This document shows positions 11,730-27,708 of a stretch of DNA of 34,137 nt, piece by piece; the first letter of the stretch is position 1, and every line of letters begins with the position of its first letter. Both the position numbers and the translations under genes were made by a program. The notes beneath the pieces are model-generated. The model saw nothing but the letters and a program-made list of their open reading frames with translations. It did not search any database and was not told the origin of the DNA. Source of the DNA: an uncultured Eubacteriales bacterium (GTDB lineage: Bacteria > Bacillota > Clostridia > Christensenellales > Borkfalkiaceae); contig CADBUU010000059.1 in the NCBI GenBank assembly GCA_902797945.1, positions 1-34,137 of the forward strand, read 5' to 3'.

Positions 11730-14702
11730 TTATTCTTCCGGAACTAAAAGATACAACTTTCCAACCCCTTCGACTTCCTTTACGGGAGTTTCTTGCGCAA
11801 CAAGTTTAGTATTAGTATCCTTAAACGTTATACTTCCGTCGTCGTTGAAAGTTGCATCATTTCCGTGTAAGAGAGAAGCTTCTACCTTATCTCCCAAATT
11901 GCCGTTGTTATAATATAATACGTTTCCGTCTTCTAAAACTATTTTATAAATATAGGTGTCGGACGTATTCAGCCCTTCAAGCAACGGCAAAGCCGATTTT
12001 TTTATTAAATATCTCGAATCTTTAACGTCGAAAGGAGTCATATTTACCATACGAGTATCCGTTTCTCCGTTCTCTTTATAAACGCTGAGCGAAACGAATG
12101 CGGTAACCTCTTCGTCGTTTATATTCGTATTGAAAAATCCGCATCTAAATTCTTTTACCATTTGAAGAACAGTGCTATAAGGAATTTTTAAGCCGACCGT
12201 ATTTAACATTCTGACTTGGTCGTAAGCGCCTATCGTTTCATGGACGAAATCGGAAGCCTTAAATCCGAGAGTGCCATAAGCATCATAAGAGCCCGCAAGA
12301 CCGAAATCGTTGGGGTTTACTGCTTTATTGAAGTAAATAGCGAAATCTGCCGTCCAGTCGAGGAATGCCAAAGCGCCGAGTTGTCCTTTTTGGTCGTCTA
12401 CTCCGAATATAGCGTTTATAATCGGGTTTTCGTGTTTGGGCAAATCTTTATAAATATTAATAACATAATCGACTACGTCGTTAGCGTAAACCATATCGAA
12501 GAGATTTACGCCCGACTTATTGCCGTTTATAAGAATATCGTTCTTCTTATCAAACGATTTAAAGGAATAAGTTACGTCCGTAACGTATCCGTTATCTACA
12601 ATAGGAGCGTCGAGTTTTTCAACGGATGCGACGGGACTGTTACATCTGGGGCAATAAGCCGAATTGAATTCGACGTCGTAAGTCGTATCGTTCGCTTCAT
12701 AAGATTTAAGACCTAAGTCGTTTAATTGTGCGCCCGTAAGCGTGATATGAACGTGGTTATCGTGTCCGTAAGCGGGCACGAACAAATCTTCCGTAAGAAC
12801 TTCTCCGCTCTTTAATTCCGAGCCTGCCAAAATAACGCCGTCTTCGAGACAACTTGCTCTGAGTTCGTGATTATTTACGGTTTTCCAGTTTATTTTTTCG
12901 AATTTATATTCGAGGAAAGCCTCGACGTCGTCTATGCCATCGAAAGACAAGTCTTCTTTGTTTTCAAAAGTTTCTTCCTTGACGGCTTCTCTTACGACTT
13001 CGCTCTTTTCCTGTTCCTTTTCGTTATTCGCCATTGCCTTTTCGCCTGCGTCGTCGGTGCTATCTATAACGAGCAATCCAAGCGCGCTCGAAACGGTAAC
13101 GTTCTGAACGTCCGTTTTTTCCGTCGTTCCGGTTTCTCCGGTGCTATCGGTATGTTGATAAACGTAAATTTCTTCGGAGTCGTCAGCCGTTTCAACGGTT
13201 ACGACGAGCGTAGGAAGGGTTACAGAGACTTTATCTCTCGTTATCGCCTCGGGCAACGCGCTTGCGCCGTTATCCCTTATTACTACGGTATCGAAAGAAG
13301 CGTCGTCTTTCTTATTTATATGAATATGCTTGATTTCCGAACTGTTTTCGAGAACTATACGCCCCGTCGAGATTTCGGCGAAAGCGATTTTTCCGTTTTC
13401 GTGATAGGACGAAGTGGCGCACTTTATAATATTCAAAGCGCCCGCCGTTCCGTAGTGATAAACGACGTCGCCGTCCTTATCGTCTTCCGCATTGACGTAA
13501 CCGTTTACGGTTAAAGAGGTGTTGGCGGAATTAGTTCTGATAATAACCGTCCTTGCGGTCGTTTGATTGCTTCTGTCGTAAACGATAGAGGTTATATTCG
13601 TATTTTCACCCGAGTCAAACCCGACCGTCAAACCTTCGATTTGAGCGTCCGTCCAACCGGTATTTGCGTAAATCGAATAACCCTTATTGTCGCTTTCCCA
13701 AGCGTTTAAACCGTTATATACCTTGAAATAATCGTATTTATTCGCTGAAAGAGGTATTTCGTCCTCATATACGAACGTATCCGTCTTACTGTTCCAAAGT
13801 ATTCCCTTTTCGGCAATAACGCCGAGGAAATCTTTTAAAACTTCCGATTCCGTATCGTTATTATACCAAGCGGTCGTTAATGCGTCGTGCATGGTAGTAT
13901 GATTTTTCATAATAAGCGTCTTATTGAGCTTATCGAGAGTAACCTTACGATTGCCGGCATTCAAATCGTCCGCTATTCCGATAGCGGCGTTAGACTGAAC
14001 GGCTTCGACGGTAATATTCAATCTGATAGACTTTTCCTGATATTCGTTACCTGCGTCGACAGGCAAAGCGATATCGACGTATAAGTCGCTTATATCGGTA
14101 GGCTCACCGTTGGAAGCGGCTGCGAGTTCCCAAGCGGTTGACTGCTCTCTGCGTTCAAGAGTATAGAGATTTTTTCTCGAATAATCGTCTCCGCTGATAG
14201 GACCTACTTTTTTGTCGAGTTCGTCGTAAAAATCTTCGTCGCCCGTATAAGAAATCACCACGCGATAAATTATGCTGACGTTACTTAAATTATCTATTTC
14301 GACTTTGAATTTAACTCTGTCGCCCGGAGTCATTCTGTCGAGCATCAAAGCGTTCCCGTCCACGCTTGCCGTTCCGCTGTTTTTGAAAACGTAATATTTT
14401 ACGTTCGTTACGGAATCGGTATAGGTCGAGTTCTGCGCTTCCCATTCGTATTTGCTCGTTACTCCGAAAGCCGTCGCCTCGCCGGCGTAAGTTTCGCCGT
14501 CAGTATCAACTTCGTCGTTAGCCTTGACCGAATAAATTTCCGGAGTAGAAAGCGCCGCGACGACTTTAACTTTACCCGAAGTTACGGCAATATTGACTTT
14601 GCTTTCGCTTGTGAAAAGGGCGAACGTGCTGCCGGCAATAAGCGAAAGGCAAAGCGCGATCACCAAAATCGAAGAAAGCAAAACTTTTTTCTTGTTCTTC
14701 AT
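11730..14702 (-). CDS. Large exported protein with SipW-type signal peptide and TasA/CalY-like N-terminal module (protein A)
   Basis: A 990-residue protein. Residues 1-30 are a SipW-dependent signal peptide: a lysine cluster, a hydrophobic core, then IAGSTFALFTSES with cleavage near the ALF/TSES boundary. Residues of about 35-235 resemble the TasA/CalY (camelysin) beta-sandwich, with MTPGDRVKFKVEIDNLSNV and LNITVEAVQSNA as in related proteins. The remaining ~750 residues are acidic and rich in S/T/D/N; they contain a CPRC pair near the middle of the C-terminal half but no domain I can name. There is no LPXTG sorting signal and no C-terminal membrane anchor, so it is secreted or assembled like TasA. 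No sipW or sortase gene is in the window. It is a paralogue of the next gene only at its N-terminus. The ribosome site is AGAGGT before ATG 14702. Confidence 0.85.
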   Translation of the reverse strand: MKNKKKVLLSSILVIALCLSLIAGSTFALFTSESKVNIAVTSGKVKVVAALSTPEIYSVKANDEVDTDGETYAGEATAFGVTSKYEWEAQNSTYTDSVTNVKYYVFKNSGTASVDGNALMLDRMTPGDRVKFKVEIDNLSNVSIIYRVVISYTGDEDFYDELDKKVGPISGDDYSRKNLYTLERREQSTAWELAAASNGEPTDISDLYVDIALPVDAGNEYQEKSIRLNITVEAVQSNAAIGIADDLNAGNRKVTLDKLNKTLIMKNHTTMHDALTTAWYNNDTESEVLKDFLGVIAEKGILWNSKTDTFVYEDEIPLSANKYDYFKVYNGLNAWESDNKGYSIYANTGWTDAQIEGLTVGFDSGENTNITSIVYDRSNQTTARTVIIRTNSANTSLTVNGYVNAEDDKDGDVVYHYGTAGALNIIKCATSSYHENGKIAFAEISTGRIVLENSSEIKHIHINKKDDASFDTVVIRDNGASALPEAITRDKVSVTLPTLVVTVETADDSEEIYVYQHTDSTGETGTTEKTDVQNVTVSSALGLLVIDSTDDAGEKAMANNEKEQEKSEVVREAVKEETFENKEDLSFDGIDDVEAFLEYKFEKINWKTVNNHELRASCLEDGVILAGSELKSGEVLTEDLFVPAYGHDNHVHITLTGAQLNDLGLKSYEANDTTYDVEFNSAYCPRCNSPVASVEKLDAPIVDNGYVTDVTYSFKSFDKKNDILINGNKSGVNLFDMVYANDVVDYVINIYKDLPKHENPIINAIFGVDDQKGQLGALAFLDWTADFAIYFNKAVNPNDFGLAGSYDAYGTLGFKASDFVHETIGAYDQVRMLNTVGLKIPYSTVLQMVKEFRCGFFNTNINDEEVTAFVSLSVYKENGETDTRMVNMTPFDVKDSRYLIKKSALPLLEGLNTSDTYIYKIVLEDGNVLYYNNGNLGDKVEASLLHGNDATFNDDGSITFKDTNTKLVAQETPVKEVEGVGKLYLLVPEE

Positions 14703-14918: not shown

Positions 14919-17900
14919 TCAAAGATTCTCTACCGTATAAACCGTTATTTCCTCTTGAGCAATTACTTTTTCAGCGTCAAAATAGCCGACCCAATTATCC
15001 TCTGCATAATTATTGTCCAACCTGTTTCCCGTCGCTTCAACTTGAGCGGTGTCGGCAGCGGAATATGAAGTTATTTGAACATAGCAACCACTCATCGAGT
15101 TGTTGACAAACGTGATCTTTTCATAAGCGCTTACGCCAACGTTCGCATTAGTAAACGTATTACCGTCAATAACGACAATCTTGAAATCTTTTGCGTTTTC
15201 ATTATCTGAAACACCGCGTGTCCAATTTACAAACTTACTGTTCTTTATGGAAACGGAAGCGTTGACTTGACTGCTCGATTGCCCCTCGCCGAATATTATC
15301 GCGCGGGAATTACTACGCGAAGTCGTTCCTATAAATTTGCAATTTTCTACGGTCAGGTTGGCTTTTGCAGAAATAGCGCGAACACGGTTACCGTTGCCTT
15401 CAGGGACTTCGCTCAAATCGAAGGTAAGATTTTTAACGGTCGCGTCTCCTTCAAACCTGAATACGCTATGATAGTTTCCGCCGTCGCTTATATCCCCGGT
15501 AAATTTAATAGTATGACCAAGTCCGTCAATAATAACAGGTACCGAAGTTCTTCCGCCTTTTCTTTCATCCCAAGCGTCCGATATAACAATGTCGGATGAA
15601 AGTGCGATCATATCGTTGCTCGCGGCATTTTTAACGGCGTTTTTAAGTTCTTCCGCGTTAGAAACGCTTATGATTTCTTTAACCGTCAGATTAAGCATAT
15701 TCGGAACTGCTTGAATACGTTCTTTTACCGTTTCGTTAACAACGTAAACCGTAACGTTTTCGCTGCTACCGCTTTCGGTATTGGTAAACGTCATTTGTCC
15801 TTCAAAGGTTACGTCTTCACGATGAAGTTCAACGGTTTTAAGATTCGGACAACCTCTTGACAAATAATCCCCAAGAGTTAAAGCGTCATTGTTACCGCCG
15901 TTAAATATAATAGTCGTTAAATCAACGCAACCCGCAATCGACTGTTTCGCCGCATAGTTAAGCGACGCGGGAAGCGAGAGACTTTCGATCGCGCTTTGCT
16001 GGAAGGCTCCGACTTCAAGCGTTGTAATTCCCTCGGGAACCACAAAATCCGAAATTCCTTTGATTTTATAGAACATTCTGTTGGGAACTTTCGTCATATT
16101 ACCGAAATCAACCGATTTTACCGTCGCATTGTTTTCGAATATTTTCATAGCGTCTTTGAGATCTTTTGTAAATATAACGCGTTCGATAGTTTCGTTAAAC
16201 GAGAAAGCGTTGAAATCAATTCCGTCAACGTATTCTTTAACTGTAAACGTCGATCCTTCATAATAACTCGCGCTCTGGAGATATACGTCCCCGTCAGAGT
16301 ATACGCGATAAACGATATCGTCGGACGCTTTGCCGTCAAAATAAGTTACTCCGCCTTTCGTATGACCGTACCAATCCAAAGTCGCTTTATTTCCCTGTCC
16401 TACCGTCAACATCGTGTTTTTTGCAAATACCGGCGATTCCTCATTGTTGGAAATTACGGGTAGGTTTACATTTAACAAAATCTTATCGCCGATTTCCGCC
16501 GCATCGAAAGCGTCGACAAGGGTTTCGTAAACTACGCCGTCTTTGGTTCCGCTTATTAAAACGTAGTTGCCGGAAACGGTAGTTACGTTACCGCTTTCAT
16601 CAACGCTGACGTTTACTTTATCTCCGTCTTTATTCGTATAAACCCCCGTCGCTTCGGTCGCGTCAAGAACGACAATTCCCTTGTCGGTTTCGTAAGCGTA
16701 ATTTGCGTTATATACTACGGTATACTCGGAAAAACTCGTAGTTTCGAAAGTGATATAACCGCTTTCGCTGTTATAATCGAAGTCCGTGATTTGAGTCGTT
16801 TTGTTGGTTGCGTCGTCGTAGTGGTAAAGTTCCACGCCCATAAGTCCCGTGCCTACGAACATCGTTACTCTGATTTTTTCTTCGTTATCGTGAGATATTG
16901 CGTCACTCGTCGTAGTAGTAGTTTCTTCGCCTACCATTTCGGTAACGATTTTCAAAACGCTGACGTCGTAAGAAGCGCTCGCTTTTGCGGGATTGTTATT
17001 AAGAACGGCAATATTACCCTGCGTTTCCTGAGGAGTAACTTTTACCATAAGCGAAGTATCCGTTTCGCTCGTAAGGACCGTGTCTTTTGGTAAAACCACC
17101 GTTACGAGGTTGTCGTTATCGCTTATCTGAGTATTTTCGGCGGTAGTCTTTGAATTGGCTACGGTAGTAGCCGTAGGCTCCGTCTCGATTGCGGTAGTGA
17201 GAATTTCGTTTGTGGTTTTAGCGTTGCCCTGAACCGCTTCTACGGAAACAGTCATAGAAGTAGACTGATTCATATATTCTTCGCCGTCAAGATCGATAGG
17301 AAGATATATTTTTACGGGGATAGAGGGAATCGTTCCGTTCACTTCGAGATTTTTCCAGTTGCCCGTTCTCGAAACGCCGGTAAGCAATACGCCGTCTATC
17401 GAAACTTTCATTTTATTGAAAATTTTAAGACCGCTGTTTACGGTAACGATAACTCTGTATTGAATGTTTACGTTACTGTTGTTTGCAATTTCGACGTCGA
17501 AATCTATCCTGTCGCCCGGAGTTACTCTGTCGAGATCGAGCTTGTTCGTAGTCGCGGTATAAGTTGCCTCTCCTGTGTTTGTAAATACGCCGTTGAAATT
17601 ACCCGTGTCGCTGTCCGTCGTTACGGTAAGAGGCTCGTAATAATAGGTTGCGGCGTGATTTCCCGACGTAATTTCGCCGGCAACTTCGTAAGCGGTGTCC
17701 TGTTCGTCTTTGCTTTCTACCGTTGCGGAATATATTTTCGGATTTTTAATTTCCGCGTCCACGTTTACTTTACCCGAAGTTACGGCAATGTTGACGTGGC
17801 TTTCGCTCGTGAAAAGGGCGAACGTGCTTCCCGCAATAAGCGAAAGGCAAAGCGCGATCACCAAAACCGAAGAAAGCAAAACTTTTTTCTTGTTTTTCAT
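14919..17900 (-). CDS. Large exported protein with SipW-type signal peptide, BspA-type LRR and beta-helix domains (protein B)
   Basis: A 993-residue protein. Residues 1-34 repeat the SipW-type signal peptide of protein A with two substitutions. About 35-230 is a TasA/CalY-like beta-sandwich (RVTPGDRIDFDVEIANNSNV, TMTVSVEAVQGNA-like). About 300-400 is an acidic beta domain ending ETTSFSEYTVVYNA. About 565-700 is a BspA-like leucine-rich repeat stretch (FVVPEGITTLEVGAFQQSAI, LSLPASLNYA). About 745-970 is a right-handed parallel beta-helix (VIIDGLGHTIKF, VKNLTFDL, LTVENCKFIG, VSIKNSKFVN). LRR and beta-helix modules in secreted proteins usually bind host surfaces or polysaccharide. No LPXTG motif and no membrane anchor. 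The ribosome site is GAGGT before ATG 17900. It has its own promoter and an unusually structured leader. Confidence 0.86.
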   Translation of the reverse strand: MKNKKKVLLSSVLVIALCLSLIAGSTFALFTSESHVNIAVTSGKVNVDAEIKNPKIYSATVESKDEQDTAYEVAGEITSGNHAATYYYEPLTVTTDSDTGNFNGVFTNTGEATYTATTNKLDLDRVTPGDRIDFDVEIANNSNVNIQYRVIVTVNSGLKIFNKMKVSIDGVLLTGVSRTGNWKNLEVNGTIPSIPVKIYLPIDLDGEEYMNQSTSMTVSVEAVQGNAKTTNEILTTAIETEPTATTVANSKTTAENTQISDNDNLVTVVLPKDTVLTSETDTSLMVKVTPQETQGNIAVLNNNPAKASASYDVSVLKIVTEMVGEETTTTTSDAISHDNEEKIRVTMFVGTGLMGVELYHYDDATNKTTQITDFDYNSESGYITFETTSFSEYTVVYNANYAYETDKGIVVLDATEATGVYTNKDGDKVNVSVDESGNVTTVSGNYVLISGTKDGVVYETLVDAFDAAEIGDKILLNVNLPVISNNEESPVFAKNTMLTVGQGNKATLDWYGHTKGGVTYFDGKASDDIVYRVYSDGDVYLQSASYYEGSTFTVKEYVDGIDFNAFSFNETIERVIFTKDLKDAMKIFENNATVKSVDFGNMTKVPNRMFYKIKGISDFVVPEGITTLEVGAFQQSAIESLSLPASLNYAAKQSIAGCVDLTTIIFNGGNNDALTLGDYLSRGCPNLKTVELHREDVTFEGQMTFTNTESGSSENVTVYVVNETVKERIQAVPNMLNLTVKEIISVSNAEELKNAVKNAASNDMIALSSDIVISDAWDERKGGRTSVPVIIDGLGHTIKFTGDISDGGNYHSVFRFEGDATVKNLTFDLSEVPEGNGNRVRAISAKANLTVENCKFIGTTSRSNSRAIIFGEGQSSSQVNASVSIKNSKFVNWTRGVSDNENAKDFKIVVIDGNTFTNANVGVSAYEKITFVNNSMSGCYVQITSYSAADTAQVEATGNRLDNNYAEDNWVGYFDAEKVIAQEEITVYTVENL

Positions 17901-21487: not shown

Positions 21488-22711
21488 TTACGAAAACAAG
21501 GAGATTATTTTTTTATCGATTTTCCCCTCTTCCCCTTCGCTGACGGCAAGATAAAACCCGTCGGCTAAGTCGGCTGAAAAAAGATACTCGGCGCCCTCTT
21601 TCGCCTCTTTATACGCAAGCCTTGAAATTTCTCCTTTCGCAAAATAATAGAGGGTAACTCTGTCCGAAATTTTATAACTTCTGATTTTAGCGACCGAATT
21701 TATTTTCGGCAGATTTTCCGTTCCTAAAATTACAGCCGTAACTTTATCCGCCCTCGCCGAAACCGCAACTATTTTAAGTCCTTTTATTCCGCATAATTTC
21801 AAAAGAAGGTCGTATCCCTCGTTTATTCCCGTAAGTTCTATATAAGCGCAGTTCTTTTTCTTCGCTACGGCGGAGACAAAGCCCTCGCGCTCCTCCCGTA
21901 TGACCGTTCCCTCACGGTCGGGGAAAAAAGTGTTTTTTACGGTAATGGTCAGTCCCGTTCCGATAAGAGGCAGAACGCTGTCGGGATGCAAAACGCTCGC
22001 CCCGAATTCGGAAATTATTCTCGCTTCGTTAAACCCCAATTCCGAAAGGGGGGAAGCGTCGGGACATATTTTCGGATCTATCGGGTAAAATCCGTCGACG
22101 TCGGTAAAGTTGACGTAATCGGTCGCAAGCGCCGCTGAAACGACCGCCCCCGAAAAATCGCTTCCGCCTCGCCCGAAGAGTTTTATTTTCCCCTCGCCGT
22201 CCGAACCGTAAAACCCTCCGCATATAAACTTCCCTTTTTTGAGATAAAAATCTTTTATTAAAAATTTCGAAAACTCAATGTTGAACTTTCCGTCTCCGTC
22301 GAATTTCATAACGTCGGCGGCGTCGCAAAATTCATAGCCTAAATACTCGGACGCAAGAAGGGCGAAAGCGTATTCTCCTCTCGAAACGAGAAAATCGAGC
22401 GTCGGTTGTAAATTAAACTCCCGCTCGATTTTCTTTCGTAAATTCTCTATATCTATTTTTAATTTAAGTCCTTCTTTTACAGCGTATAATCTTTTATAGA
22501 AAGGCTCCGTCGCCTTAAATACGCTCTCTCCTCTTTTAAGAGAGAAAAAGGCGTTTATTAAAATATCGGTTATTTTATCCTCTTTTTCGGTCTTGCCGCC
22601 CGCCGATACGACGATCGCCGCAACCTCTTTTTGCTTTCGCGTCGCTTCCGCCGTCAGAAAAAATTCCCTCGCTCCCGCAAGAGAACTTCCTCCGAATTTA
22701 AGTGTTTTCAA
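21488..22711 (-). CDS. lysC: Aspartate kinase
   Basis: A 407-residue aspartokinase that phosphorylates aspartate, the first step to lysine, threonine, methionine and diaminopimelate. The N-terminus KFGGSSLAG is the kinase motif (commonly KFGGTSVA). VSRGEYAFALLASEYLG, KLFGRGGSDFSGAVVSAAL, NFTDVDGFYPIDPKI and GASVLHPDSVLPL complete the catalytic domain, and the last ~110 residues are a pair of ACT-like domains. The start is TTG at 22711, overlapping the TGA of the 36-residue gene by TTGA, so translation is probably coupled. No lysine riboswitch leader exists because it is internal to an operon with cdaA. Confidence 0.88.
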   Translation of the reverse strand: MKTLKFGGSSLAGAREFFLTAEATRKQKEVAAIVVSAGGKTEKEDKITDILINAFFSLKRGESVFKATEPFYKRLYAVKEGLKLKIDIENLRKKIEREFNLQPTLDFLVSRGEYAFALLASEYLGYEFCDAADVMKFDGDGKFNIEFSKFLIKDFYLKKGKFICGGFYGSDGEGKIKLFGRGGSDFSGAVVSAALATDYVNFTDVDGFYPIDPKICPDASPLSELGFNEARIISEFGASVLHPDSVLPLIGTGLTITVKNTFFPDREGTVIREEREGFVSAVAKKKNCAYIELTGINEGYDLLLKLCGIKGLKIVAVSARADKVTAVILGTENLPKINSVAKIRSYKISDRVTLYYFAKGEISRLAYKEAKEGAEYLFSADLADGFYLAVSEGEEGKIDKKIISLFS

Positions 22712-22818
22712 TAGTTCATCACCACGTATACGAAAACTGCGAGAACCGCCGCCAAAAGCGCGGTCATTATCACTCCGAAAACTTTCGACGAAACGCTCGT
22801 CTTTTTATCTTCATTCAT
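22708..22818 (-). CDS. Small single-pass membrane protein between cdaA and lysC (36 aa)
   Basis: A short frame with a strong GGAGGT ribosome site 7 bases before ATG 22818. It encodes a charged N-terminus MNEDKKTSVSSK followed by one hydrophobic helix (VFGVIMTALLAAVLAVFVYVV) and MNY. Its stop overlaps the TTG start of lysC, and it begins 14 bases after cdaA. I do not recognise the family. In most Firmicutes the gene after cdaA is cdaR, a membrane-anchored regulator with YbbR domains; this peptide has only the membrane helix. Real-gene status is supported by the ribosome site, the tight packing and a clear transmembrane helix. Confidence 0.7.
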   Translation of the reverse strand: MNEDKKTSVSSKVFGVIMTALLAAVLAVFVYVVMNY

Positions 22819-22832
22819 ATTCCGACCTCCCG

Positions 22833-23669
22833 TTATGAATTCTTCTGTCCAAGAAGTTCTTGCCAATAATATTCTTTAAGAACCTTTCTGAGCATCTCAG
22901 AATCTGCATATCTCTTTATCTTTCCGCCCTGCGCTATCGAAATAATACCGGTTTCTTCGGATACGATAAGCGCCGTAACGTTGATCGTCTCGGTTATTCC
23001 TATCCCCGCCCTATGTCTCGTTCCGAGTTCCTTGGGAATGTTCAATTCCTGAGAAAGGGGAAGAAAGCACCCTGCGGCATGTATCTTAGTGCCGTTTATT
23101 ACCATCGCCCCGTCGTGAAGCGGCGTTTTAGGGAAGAAAATACTCTCTATCAAAGCGGAAGAAATAGTCGAATCGATCGTAACTCCGCTCTCTATTACCG
23201 ACTTCGGAAGATTGCCGTTCGCAAGTATTATTATCGCCCCGACGTCGTTTTTCGACATATTTTGAAGCGCCTTTACGATTTCGTCTATACATTTCGTCGC
23301 ATTGGGATCCGTTACCCCTTTATCGACGTGCTTGGTTTCCGACGACGTTTTCTTTATCCCGAAATCCCATATATCTCTCTTAATTTCGGTGGCGAACATC
23401 GCTATTACCGCTATTACGAAAATCATCGGAACGAGAAAGTAAAACTTACTCTGAAGCGAAGTCGTTTCAAACGAAATAAATACTATTCCCGTTATCAAAA
23501 CGTATAAAACAAAGACGAAAACGAGCCATTTGGCGTTGTTTTTCACCATTATCCTTATCGTATAAAAAAACACGAAAAACAATACGATTATCGTCAAAAT
23601 GGAAGATACGACCGAACTGTGGAAATTACTTCCGAGTTTGGTAAAAAATTCCGTTATTTTTTCAAGCAT
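22833..23669 (-). CDS. cdaA: CdaA diadenylate cyclase (c-di-AMP synthase)
   Basis: A 278-residue membrane enzyme making c-di-AMP from two ATP. Three transmembrane helices lie at about 21-42, 47-67 and 76-94, a linker follows, then the DAC domain with DGA (186-188) in LHDGAMVINGTKI and RHR (218-220) in LGTRHRAGIGITE, plus the acidic SEETGIISIA. Length matches CdaA/YbbP. c-di-AMP controls potassium and osmolyte transport and cell-wall homeostasis in Gram-positives. The usual downstream partners cdaR and glmM are absent; instead orf36 and lysC follow. The ribosome site is AAGGAG. It follows holA by 62 bases without a clear promoter. Confidence 0.95.
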   Translation of the reverse strand: MLEKITEFFTKLGSNFHSSVVSSILTIIVLFFVFFYTIRIMVKNNAKWLVFVFVLYVLITGIVFISFETTSLQSKFYFLVPMIFVIAVIAMFATEIKRDIWDFGIKKTSSETKHVDKGVTDPNATKCIDEIVKALQNMSKNDVGAIIILANGNLPKSVIESGVTIDSTISSALIESIFFPKTPLHDGAMVINGTKIHAAGCFLPLSQELNIPKELGTRHRAGIGITETINVTALIVSEETGIISIAQGGKIKRYADSEMLRKVLKEYYWQELLGQKNS

Positions 23670-23731: not shown

Positions 23732-24712
23732 TCAGCGGTTTCCTCCGACCAAAACGTTCATTATCGCGTTCCAGACTGCGTCCTGCTGTTCTATCGCTCC
23801 GCTTTTAAAACCGAAATCGAGAGAGGACAGTTTATCGGTTATTTCCTTTATTCTCTTCGGCGAAAACGCGCTCGCCTGACTTTTGGCTTTTTTTACGGCG
23901 TATTCCTTTACTTTAAGGCTCTTCGCTATATCCGAAACGCTCATCGCCGTAGACGTGACCGAAACGTATAAAAGCCTTCTGAAATAATTATACAGCGAAG
24001 AAAAAACCCTTTGTCCGTCGCCAGCGTTTCCGACCATTCCGATAAGCGCGTCGTAAGCCTTGTCGAACCTCTTCGCGACAATATAGTCGACGACTTCGTA
24101 TAATTCGTAGTCCGTTTCCTTATGGCATATCGCCGTAACGTCCTCTTCGGTAATGACATTTCCATCGTCGCAATAGCAAATAAGTTTTTCGGTTTCGCCG
24201 TTTATCCTCGTCATATCGAATAAACAATAGTCTATAAGTCGATTAACGGCTCCCTGCGTTATGGTAAGTCCGCTTTTTTTGACTTCGTTTATCACCCAAC
24301 TCGACAACAGCGAAAAGTCGCCTTTCGAACAATCGACAACGCACACGTTTTTCTGTTTCGCAATATTTTCGCACGGCGAAGAGTTTACGATTATCAAAAC
24401 CGTGGTATCTATCGGCTCGTCAAAGTATTTTTTTAATTTGTTTATGTCCGCCGCAAGCGGATAATATTCCTTTACGACGACTACCCTTTTATCGCTTAAA
24501 AAAGGGTAACTCGAAATCGCATATATAAGTTTATCCGCGTCGCCTTTTAAATCTCCGCCCTCGAAATATGAAAGATTTAAGTCGGGTTGCTTTAAACAGA
24601 CGTTACAAATAAGTTTTTGCGCCCTTTCGAGGAAAAAAACGTCCTCGCCCGTCAATAGGTATATCGGTCGAACGTCTACCGTCAGACTTTTTTTCAGTTC
24701 TTTAAACAGCAT
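23732..24712 (-). CDS. holA: DNA polymerase III delta subunit
   Basis: A 326-residue clamp-loader subunit that opens the beta sliding clamp. The N-terminus has PIYLLTGEDVFFLERAQKLI; later come YPFLSDKRVVVVKEYYPL and TRINGETEKLICYCDDGNVI, as in Firmicutes HolA (YqeN). In Bacillus the gene is also next to comEC, so the neighbour supports the call. It has its own promoter inside the 66-base gap after comEC and a GAGGTG ribosome site. Confidence 0.93.
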   Translation of the reverse strand: MLFKELKKSLTVDVRPIYLLTGEDVFFLERAQKLICNVCLKQPDLNLSYFEGGDLKGDADKLIYAISSYPFLSDKRVVVVKEYYPLAADINKLKKYFDEPIDTTVLIIVNSSPCENIAKQKNVCVVDCSKGDFSLLSSWVINEVKKSGLTITQGAVNRLIDYCLFDMTRINGETEKLICYCDDGNVITEEDVTAICHKETDYELYEVVDYIVAKRFDKAYDALIGMVGNAGDGQRVFSSLYNYFRRLLYVSVTSTAMSVSDIAKSLKVKEYAVKKAKSQASAFSPKRIKEITDKLSSLDFGFKSGAIEQQDAVWNAIMNVLVGGNR

Positions 24713-27116: not shown

Positions 27117-27336
27117 GAAAATCGGTTATTCCTGCGGTGTTCGAAACGGAGTTTAATTCTTTCCACAATAATAAATAAGGGAGCAGGCAGTCCTTATGCG
27201 ATACGAAATGCTTGTGGTCGTTGTCATCGAGCAGACCTATATGACAAGAAGAGGATTCGCAAGGCTCCGCACCCACCTGCAATAAAGCGGGTTGATTTTT
27301 TCTCACGAACGGCACATGCGGGAATATTTTTATTTT
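27117..27336 (+). ncRNA. ssrS: 6S RNA (RNA polymerase-binding regulatory RNA)
   Basis: A noncoding stretch of about 220 bases that folds as one long arm. ATTCC (27128-27132) pairs GGAAT (27321-27325), and GTTCG (27139-27143) pairs CGAAC (27306-27310). A large internal bubble follows, and the apical hairpin is closed by CTTGT (27211-27215) with ACAAG (27244-27248) and GGTC with GACC. The 5' CCTGCGGTGTTCG and 3' ACGGCACATGCGGGAAT resemble the conserved ends of bacterial 6S RNA, and CACCTGCAATAAAGCGGGTTGA matches the small side hairpin near the 3' side. 6S RNA mimics an open promoter and sequesters sigma-A RNA polymerase. It ends in a T-rich tract (ATTTTTATTTT). SRP RNA and RNase P RNA motifs are absent. 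Ends are approximate. Confidence 0.8.
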
Positions 27337-27633: not shown

Positions 27634-27708
27634 GGCCTCATGGTCAAGCGGTTAAGACGCTGCCCTCTCACGGCAGAAACTGGGGTTCGATTCCCCATGG
27701 GGCTACCA
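27634..27708 (+). tRNA. tRNA-Glu, anticodon CTC
   Basis: 75 bases with an encoded CCA end. The acceptor stem GGCCTCA pairs TGGGGCT with G-U wobbles, the D arm is GTCAAGCGGTTAAGAC, the anticodon stem is CTGCC/GGCAG around loop CTCTCAC (anticodon CTC), and the T arm is TGGGG-TTCGATT-CCCCA. It reads GAG codons. A strong terminator follows within 6 bases. Confidence 0.95.

Follow-up and report, generated by a model that had tools for sequence, protein, structure and literature searches.

The question raised by this locus is what occupies the position directly behind cdaA, the gene encoding a membrane diadenylate cyclase, in a member of the Borkfalkiaceae in which an open reading frame (ORF) of only 36 codons stands between cdaA and the aspartate kinase gene lysC. 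The stretch of DNA analyzed, called the window below, comprises 34,137 nucleotides and belongs to a 1.55-Mb MAG of 155 contigs (92.7% complete). The relevant features, in the order in which they are read, are the following.

23732-24712, minus strand: holA
22833-23669, minus strand: cdaA, membrane diadenylate cyclase of 278 amino acids with three transmembrane (TM) helices and a DAC domain (PF02457, E = 8.5e-40)
22826-22831, minus strand: GGGAGG, Shine-Dalgarno sequence of the 36-codon ORF, read from the sequence 7 nt upstream of the ATG
22708-22818, minus strand, stop included: 36-codon ORF encoding the TM-only peptide MNEDKKTSVSSKVFGVIMTALLAAVLAVFVYVVMNY, assigned by slot, codon bias, pN/pS, and profile search via intermediates
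21488-22711, minus strand: lysC, aspartate kinase with a TTG start (PF00696, 2.2e-20; PRK09034, 2.9e-56)

A sequence-only reading of the window had placed a 36-residue frame 14 bases behind cdaA, overlapping lysC, and these coordinates were confirmed: the ATG lies at 22818, after a gap that spans 22819 to 22832, and the TGA, which ends at 22708, shares 4 nt (22708 to 22711) with the lysC start, with the GGGAGG site in place upstream. The same TTGA junction was found again within the window's genus, in which most of the 13 members also have a purine-rich site ahead of the small ORF's ATG. The upstream gene product has the hallmarks of a CdaA-type enzyme, namely, three hydropathy windows, the DAC domain, a DGA motif (LHDGAMVIN), and an RHR motif (GTRHRAGIG), and it scored 181.5 bits against TIGR00159, slightly below the cut-off of 188.8. 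The peptide had no match in Pfam or NCBIfam. Elsewhere in the window, a 6S RNA gene (RF00013, 57.8 bits) is located at 27126-27328 on the plus strand and a tRNA gene at 27634-27705, and the minus strand encodes two neighboring proteins of approximately 990 amino acids (11730-14702 and 14919-17900), only one of which has a Pfam match (LRR_5). Their near-identical 34-residue N termini end in ALFTSES and presumably resemble the signal peptides of SipW-dependent proteins.

Judged by its pattern of conservation, the small ORF is a genuine gene that is subject to purifying selection and holds a fixed place beside cdaA in the Borkfalkiaceae and several related families. Between the window and its nearest relative, L002, 13 of 108 positions of the peptide gene differ, distributed over the three codon positions as 1, 1, and 11, which corresponds to a pN of 0.04 and a pS of 0.40. 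Column entropies by codon position among the 13 genus members (0.79, 0.68, and 1.48 bits) show the same bias, pN/pS lies far below 1 in close pairs, and pN was smaller than pS in all 152 peptide pairs chosen at an identity of at least 50%. Conservation and selection of the frame, on which the sequence-only reading depended, were thereby borne out. A chance ORF, which has nothing but the small size in its favor, was ruled out by the conserved slot, the codon-position bias, and the pN/pS values; its remaining probability is negligible.

CdaA is present in 138 of the 151 Borkfalkiaceae genomes, and a single-TM peptide is encoded directly downstream of cdaA in 106 of the 110 loci of this family that were read (the exceptions being L028, L240, L244, and L254), as well as in all 20 of the loci read in six other Christensenellales families (f9, f18, f19, f20, f29, and f32). 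In the loci read of the order families f3, f6, f8, f10, f14, f16, f24, and f30, no peptide was found, and in those order families that do have PF07949, the defining domain of CdaR, full-length CdaR occupies the peptide's slot. An ORF of 28 to 80 amino acids with a TM-like stretch, starting between −45 and +50 relative to the cdaA stop, was found in 124 of 126 peptide-bearing loci, compared to 0/24 and 0/20 in the other two locus classes and 2/169 at control gene ends; since the locus classes are partly defined by this very ORF, the control gene ends provide the independent comparison. The peptides have a median length of 39 residues (32 to 62 as a rule) and a median start at +1 nt relative to the cdaA stop. 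Across all 126, hydropathy and charge counts yielded a single N-terminal TM helix with positive charge before it and almost none after it, so that a cytoplasmic N terminus is predicted, as in CdaR. The peptide of L161 (family f32), 75 amino acids long with 24 residues past the TM helix, is a possible intermediate in CdaR shortening. Outside the order, no TM-only CdaR was found in the 19 cdaA loci of the class that lack a PF07949 match and could be read (four f74 loci aside); one Clostridia record, L067, does carry a TM-only CdaR.

Could a full-length CdaR be encoded elsewhere in the genome? PF07949 found no match in the window's genome or in any of the 151 Borkfalkiaceae genomes, with matches in 75 of 200 genomes of the order and 202 of 245 of the class. 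Since PF07949 misses divergent CdaR in other Clostridia, where a long CdaR-like ORF could be recognized by eye in families f40, f41, f59, f61, f76, and f89, a profile built from an alignment of 18 CdaR sequences of the order was run together with positive controls. It recovered all 11 controls, including five that PF07949 had failed to detect at the threshold applied, and gave no match in the 37 genomes that either bear the peptide or lack CdaR. Within the sensitivity of these searches, and of a MAG that is 92.7% complete, we ruled out relocation of CdaR, and a cdaR gene elsewhere, against which the sequence-only reading had asked to be checked, was thus not found.

What that reading did not contain is the most likely identity of the peptide, namely, a CdaR of which nothing but the N-terminal TM helix is left. 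The following sequences, the last four of them given up to the stop codon, illustrate the likeness.

L168, N terminus of a full-length CdaR of the order: FVQNWKMKLIALIFAFILWSFV
L147 (f19), peptide: FVNNIVLKLLALLAAVVIWLLVGYLFV
L149 (f20), peptide: LTKNWGLKCIALATAFVIWIVAKGIYGV
L206 (family of the window), peptide: FIDNVPIKLLAVVLAVVVFVVTNYGG
Window, peptide: KVFGVIMTALLAAVLAVFVYVVMNY

An HMM built from the N-terminal TM segments of 20 full-length CdaR proteins was scored on the 126 peptides, on shuffled sequences, and on 544 native TM decoys. With this model, 46% of the peptides scored above 99.9% of the shuffles and 50% above every native decoy, figures whose weight is limited by the shortness of TM helices and the little information that they carry. 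The window peptide received 4.5 bits and its genus stayed at noise level (4.5 bits and below), so that homology in this genus would rest on intermediates, position, and synteny. A second HMM, built from 74 clear peptides with the window's genus left out, gave the window peptide 25.0 bits, a score reached by none of its 200 shuffles and compared to a maximum of 15.7 among native TM decoys. TM similarity to CdaR thus appears to be direct in roughly half of the peptides and indirect, via intermediates, in the window's genus. The motif N-x(2-3)-K-hydrophobic at the start of the TM helix is kept by the peptides of f18, f19, f20, f32, and many f1 genera, several of which also keep the TM tryptophan; this residue is invariant in full-length CdaR, and its absence from Borkfalkiaceae peptides speaks against a CdaR origin.

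On these grounds, the peptide is probably derived from a full-length YbbR-domain CdaR by loss of all extracytoplasmic YbbR domains. An ancestral CdaR would have been trimmed to its short cytoplasmic tail and single TM helix, and in some lineages the truncated form would then have disappeared altogether. The retained helix may still pack against the membrane domain of CdaA and serve as a constant subunit for its assembly or activity, uncoupled from any outside sensor. We infer such a role because the retained piece is the very one that is reported to mediate contact between CdaA and CdaR: published work locates this contact in the TM domains (PMC10243994), also in Listeria monocytogenes (PMC8573169), and a further paper cites two-hybrid data for it (PMC6368335). 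The effect of CdaR on CdaA has itself been described as unclear, with both activation and repression reported (PMC8573169). We propose more tentatively, giving it not quite even chances, that a TM-only CdaR is the working partner of CdaA throughout the family and its relatives, that the helix by itself supports CdaA assembly or activity, that c-di-AMP synthesis is no longer coupled to extracytoplasmic sensing, and that the CdaA membrane domain has been released from a constraint exerted by full-length CdaR. The earlier suggestion of a minimal membrane partner of CdaA stands as the best reading of a candidate role. Counted against descent from CdaR are the lineages that dispense with the peptide, i.e., the eight order families and four Borkfalkiaceae loci named above.

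Two other accounts of the peptide were weighed against this one. An unrelated small membrane protein might have replaced CdaR in the cdaA operon and come to resemble it because both converged on one and the same surface of CdaA; TM helices do converge easily, and the window's genus, taken by itself, has no direct similarity to CdaR, but the TM-start motif kept in f18, f19, f20, f32, and many f1 peptides, together with the tryptophan in several of them, goes beyond the native TM decoys, and the peptide gene occupies precisely the slot of cdaR and is read in its direction, which makes convergence unlikely. Alternatively, the peptide could be a decaying remnant of CdaR without a present role. While its repeated loss and the less conserved CdaA membrane domain in those lineages would agree with decay, its retention in nearly all family loci and the pN/pS values of close pairs, with pN below pS in every pair compared, would not, and we consider a mere remnant quite improbable.

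The phylogeny of CdaA bears on when the shortening took place. In a tree of 108 CdaA rows without an outgroup, full-length CdaR formed a single clade (support, 100), outside of which the shortened and lost states fell; the three states required five changes, most losses occurring in one group. Since full-length CdaR occupies the same slot after cdaA in loci of Oscillospiraceae and Planctomycetota, it is likely ancestral, and the simplest history seems to be one truncation of CdaR, followed by losses. Across CdaA of loci L001 to L030 and L126 to L265, at equal DAC-domain identity (0.55 to 0.65), identity in the TM region of CdaA was 43% among CdaR-bearing members, 21% among peptide-bearing members, and 25% among those with neither, a comparison of unequal groups and nonindependent pairs. 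The membrane domain of CdaA thus appears to evolve faster in lineages that lack the YbbR domains, which fits a former constraint imposed by full-length CdaR. A mirror-tree signal between the peptide and the CdaA helices, strongest for TM1 and weakest for TM3, has no clean null and is suggestive at best. In family f28 of the order (G177, G200, G220, and others), near-complete genomes of 0.8 to 1.3 Mb had no detectable CdaA, and no c-di-AMP riboswitch (RF00379) was found in the window's own genome and 20 relatives.

The part of the sequence-only reading that concerned lysC fared less well. Adjacency of cdaA and lysC does recur, namely, in the window, L141, L144, L145, L157, L163, and several of L228 to L244, both with and without the peptide, but it is confined to some genera, and the genes that follow the peptide vary (DUF1015 [PF06245], lysC, an hsp20-like gene, and others). 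Since the peptide stays by cdaA whatever gene comes next, a special tie to aspartate kinase is unsupported. The peptide was accordingly rejected as a lysC accessory, and lysC is probably a neighbor rather than a part of the CdaA-peptide partnership. A leader or coupling peptide for translation or regulation of lysC would account for the 4-nt overlap and for the recurring TTGA junction, but it is very unlikely and largely refuted by the many loci in which the TM peptide is kept without lysC next to it; in addition, selection acts on the amino acid sequence, beyond the overlap. Less probable still is a unit of CdaA, peptide, and aspartate kinase tying c-di-AMP to diaminopimelate or aspartate supply, the mechanism that had been proposed from the sequence. 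Adjacency in several genera and families, and the fact that no second lysC was found in the genome, speak for such a unit, whereas lysC is missing from most peptide-bearing loci, the cdaA-lysC loci L141, L157, L240, and L244 have no peptide, and none of the 10 papers that a search for c-di-AMP together with aspartate kinase brought up names the two in its title or abstract. The observation that glmM is not next to cdaA was correct, GlmM being encoded on a separate contig of the genome (C9, 502 bits). However, this absence is not special, since the CdaR-bearing members of the order likewise have no glmM-like gene downstream of cdaR, with up to ~900 bases read.

Lineages in which CdaR consists of the helix alone would allow helix contact and outside sensing to be told apart, and they offer ready-made minimal partners and a natural experiment on the helix. 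In the Borkfalkiaceae, CdaA has been kept without any detectable YbbR protein, in uncultured gut bacteria, and a gene of ~35 codons that escapes both Pfam and NCBIfam may encode a central signaling partner. In the open-access literature, to which our search was mostly confined, we found no earlier report of a CdaR limited to its TM helix or of a small partner of CdaA.

Compared to known systems, the peptide shares with CdaR/YbbR proteins (PF07949) the position directly downstream of cdaA, a short N terminus predicted to be cytoplasmic, and the single N-terminal TM helix. However, CdaR proteins of the order comprise ~350 to 470 residues with YbbR domains, whereas the peptides have neither that size nor such a domain, the 36 residues of the window peptide leaving none after the TM helix to form one. 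The peptide is most likely derived from CdaR yet, having no YbbR domain, falls outside the family that this domain defines. Likewise, the locus resembles the cdaA-cdaR-glmM operon of Firmicutes in having cdaA first and the CdaR slot second, but differs from it in that CdaR would be represented by the helix alone and glmM is unlinked. Fusions of CdaA and CdaR, which occur in streptococci (PMC10243994), are another rearrangement that ties the CdaR TM helix to CdaA; two natural fusions, with open frames of 512 and 533 amino acids, were also seen in the class-level family f56 (L286 and L291). Unlike the peptides, such fusions keep the outer YbbR-like part of CdaR.
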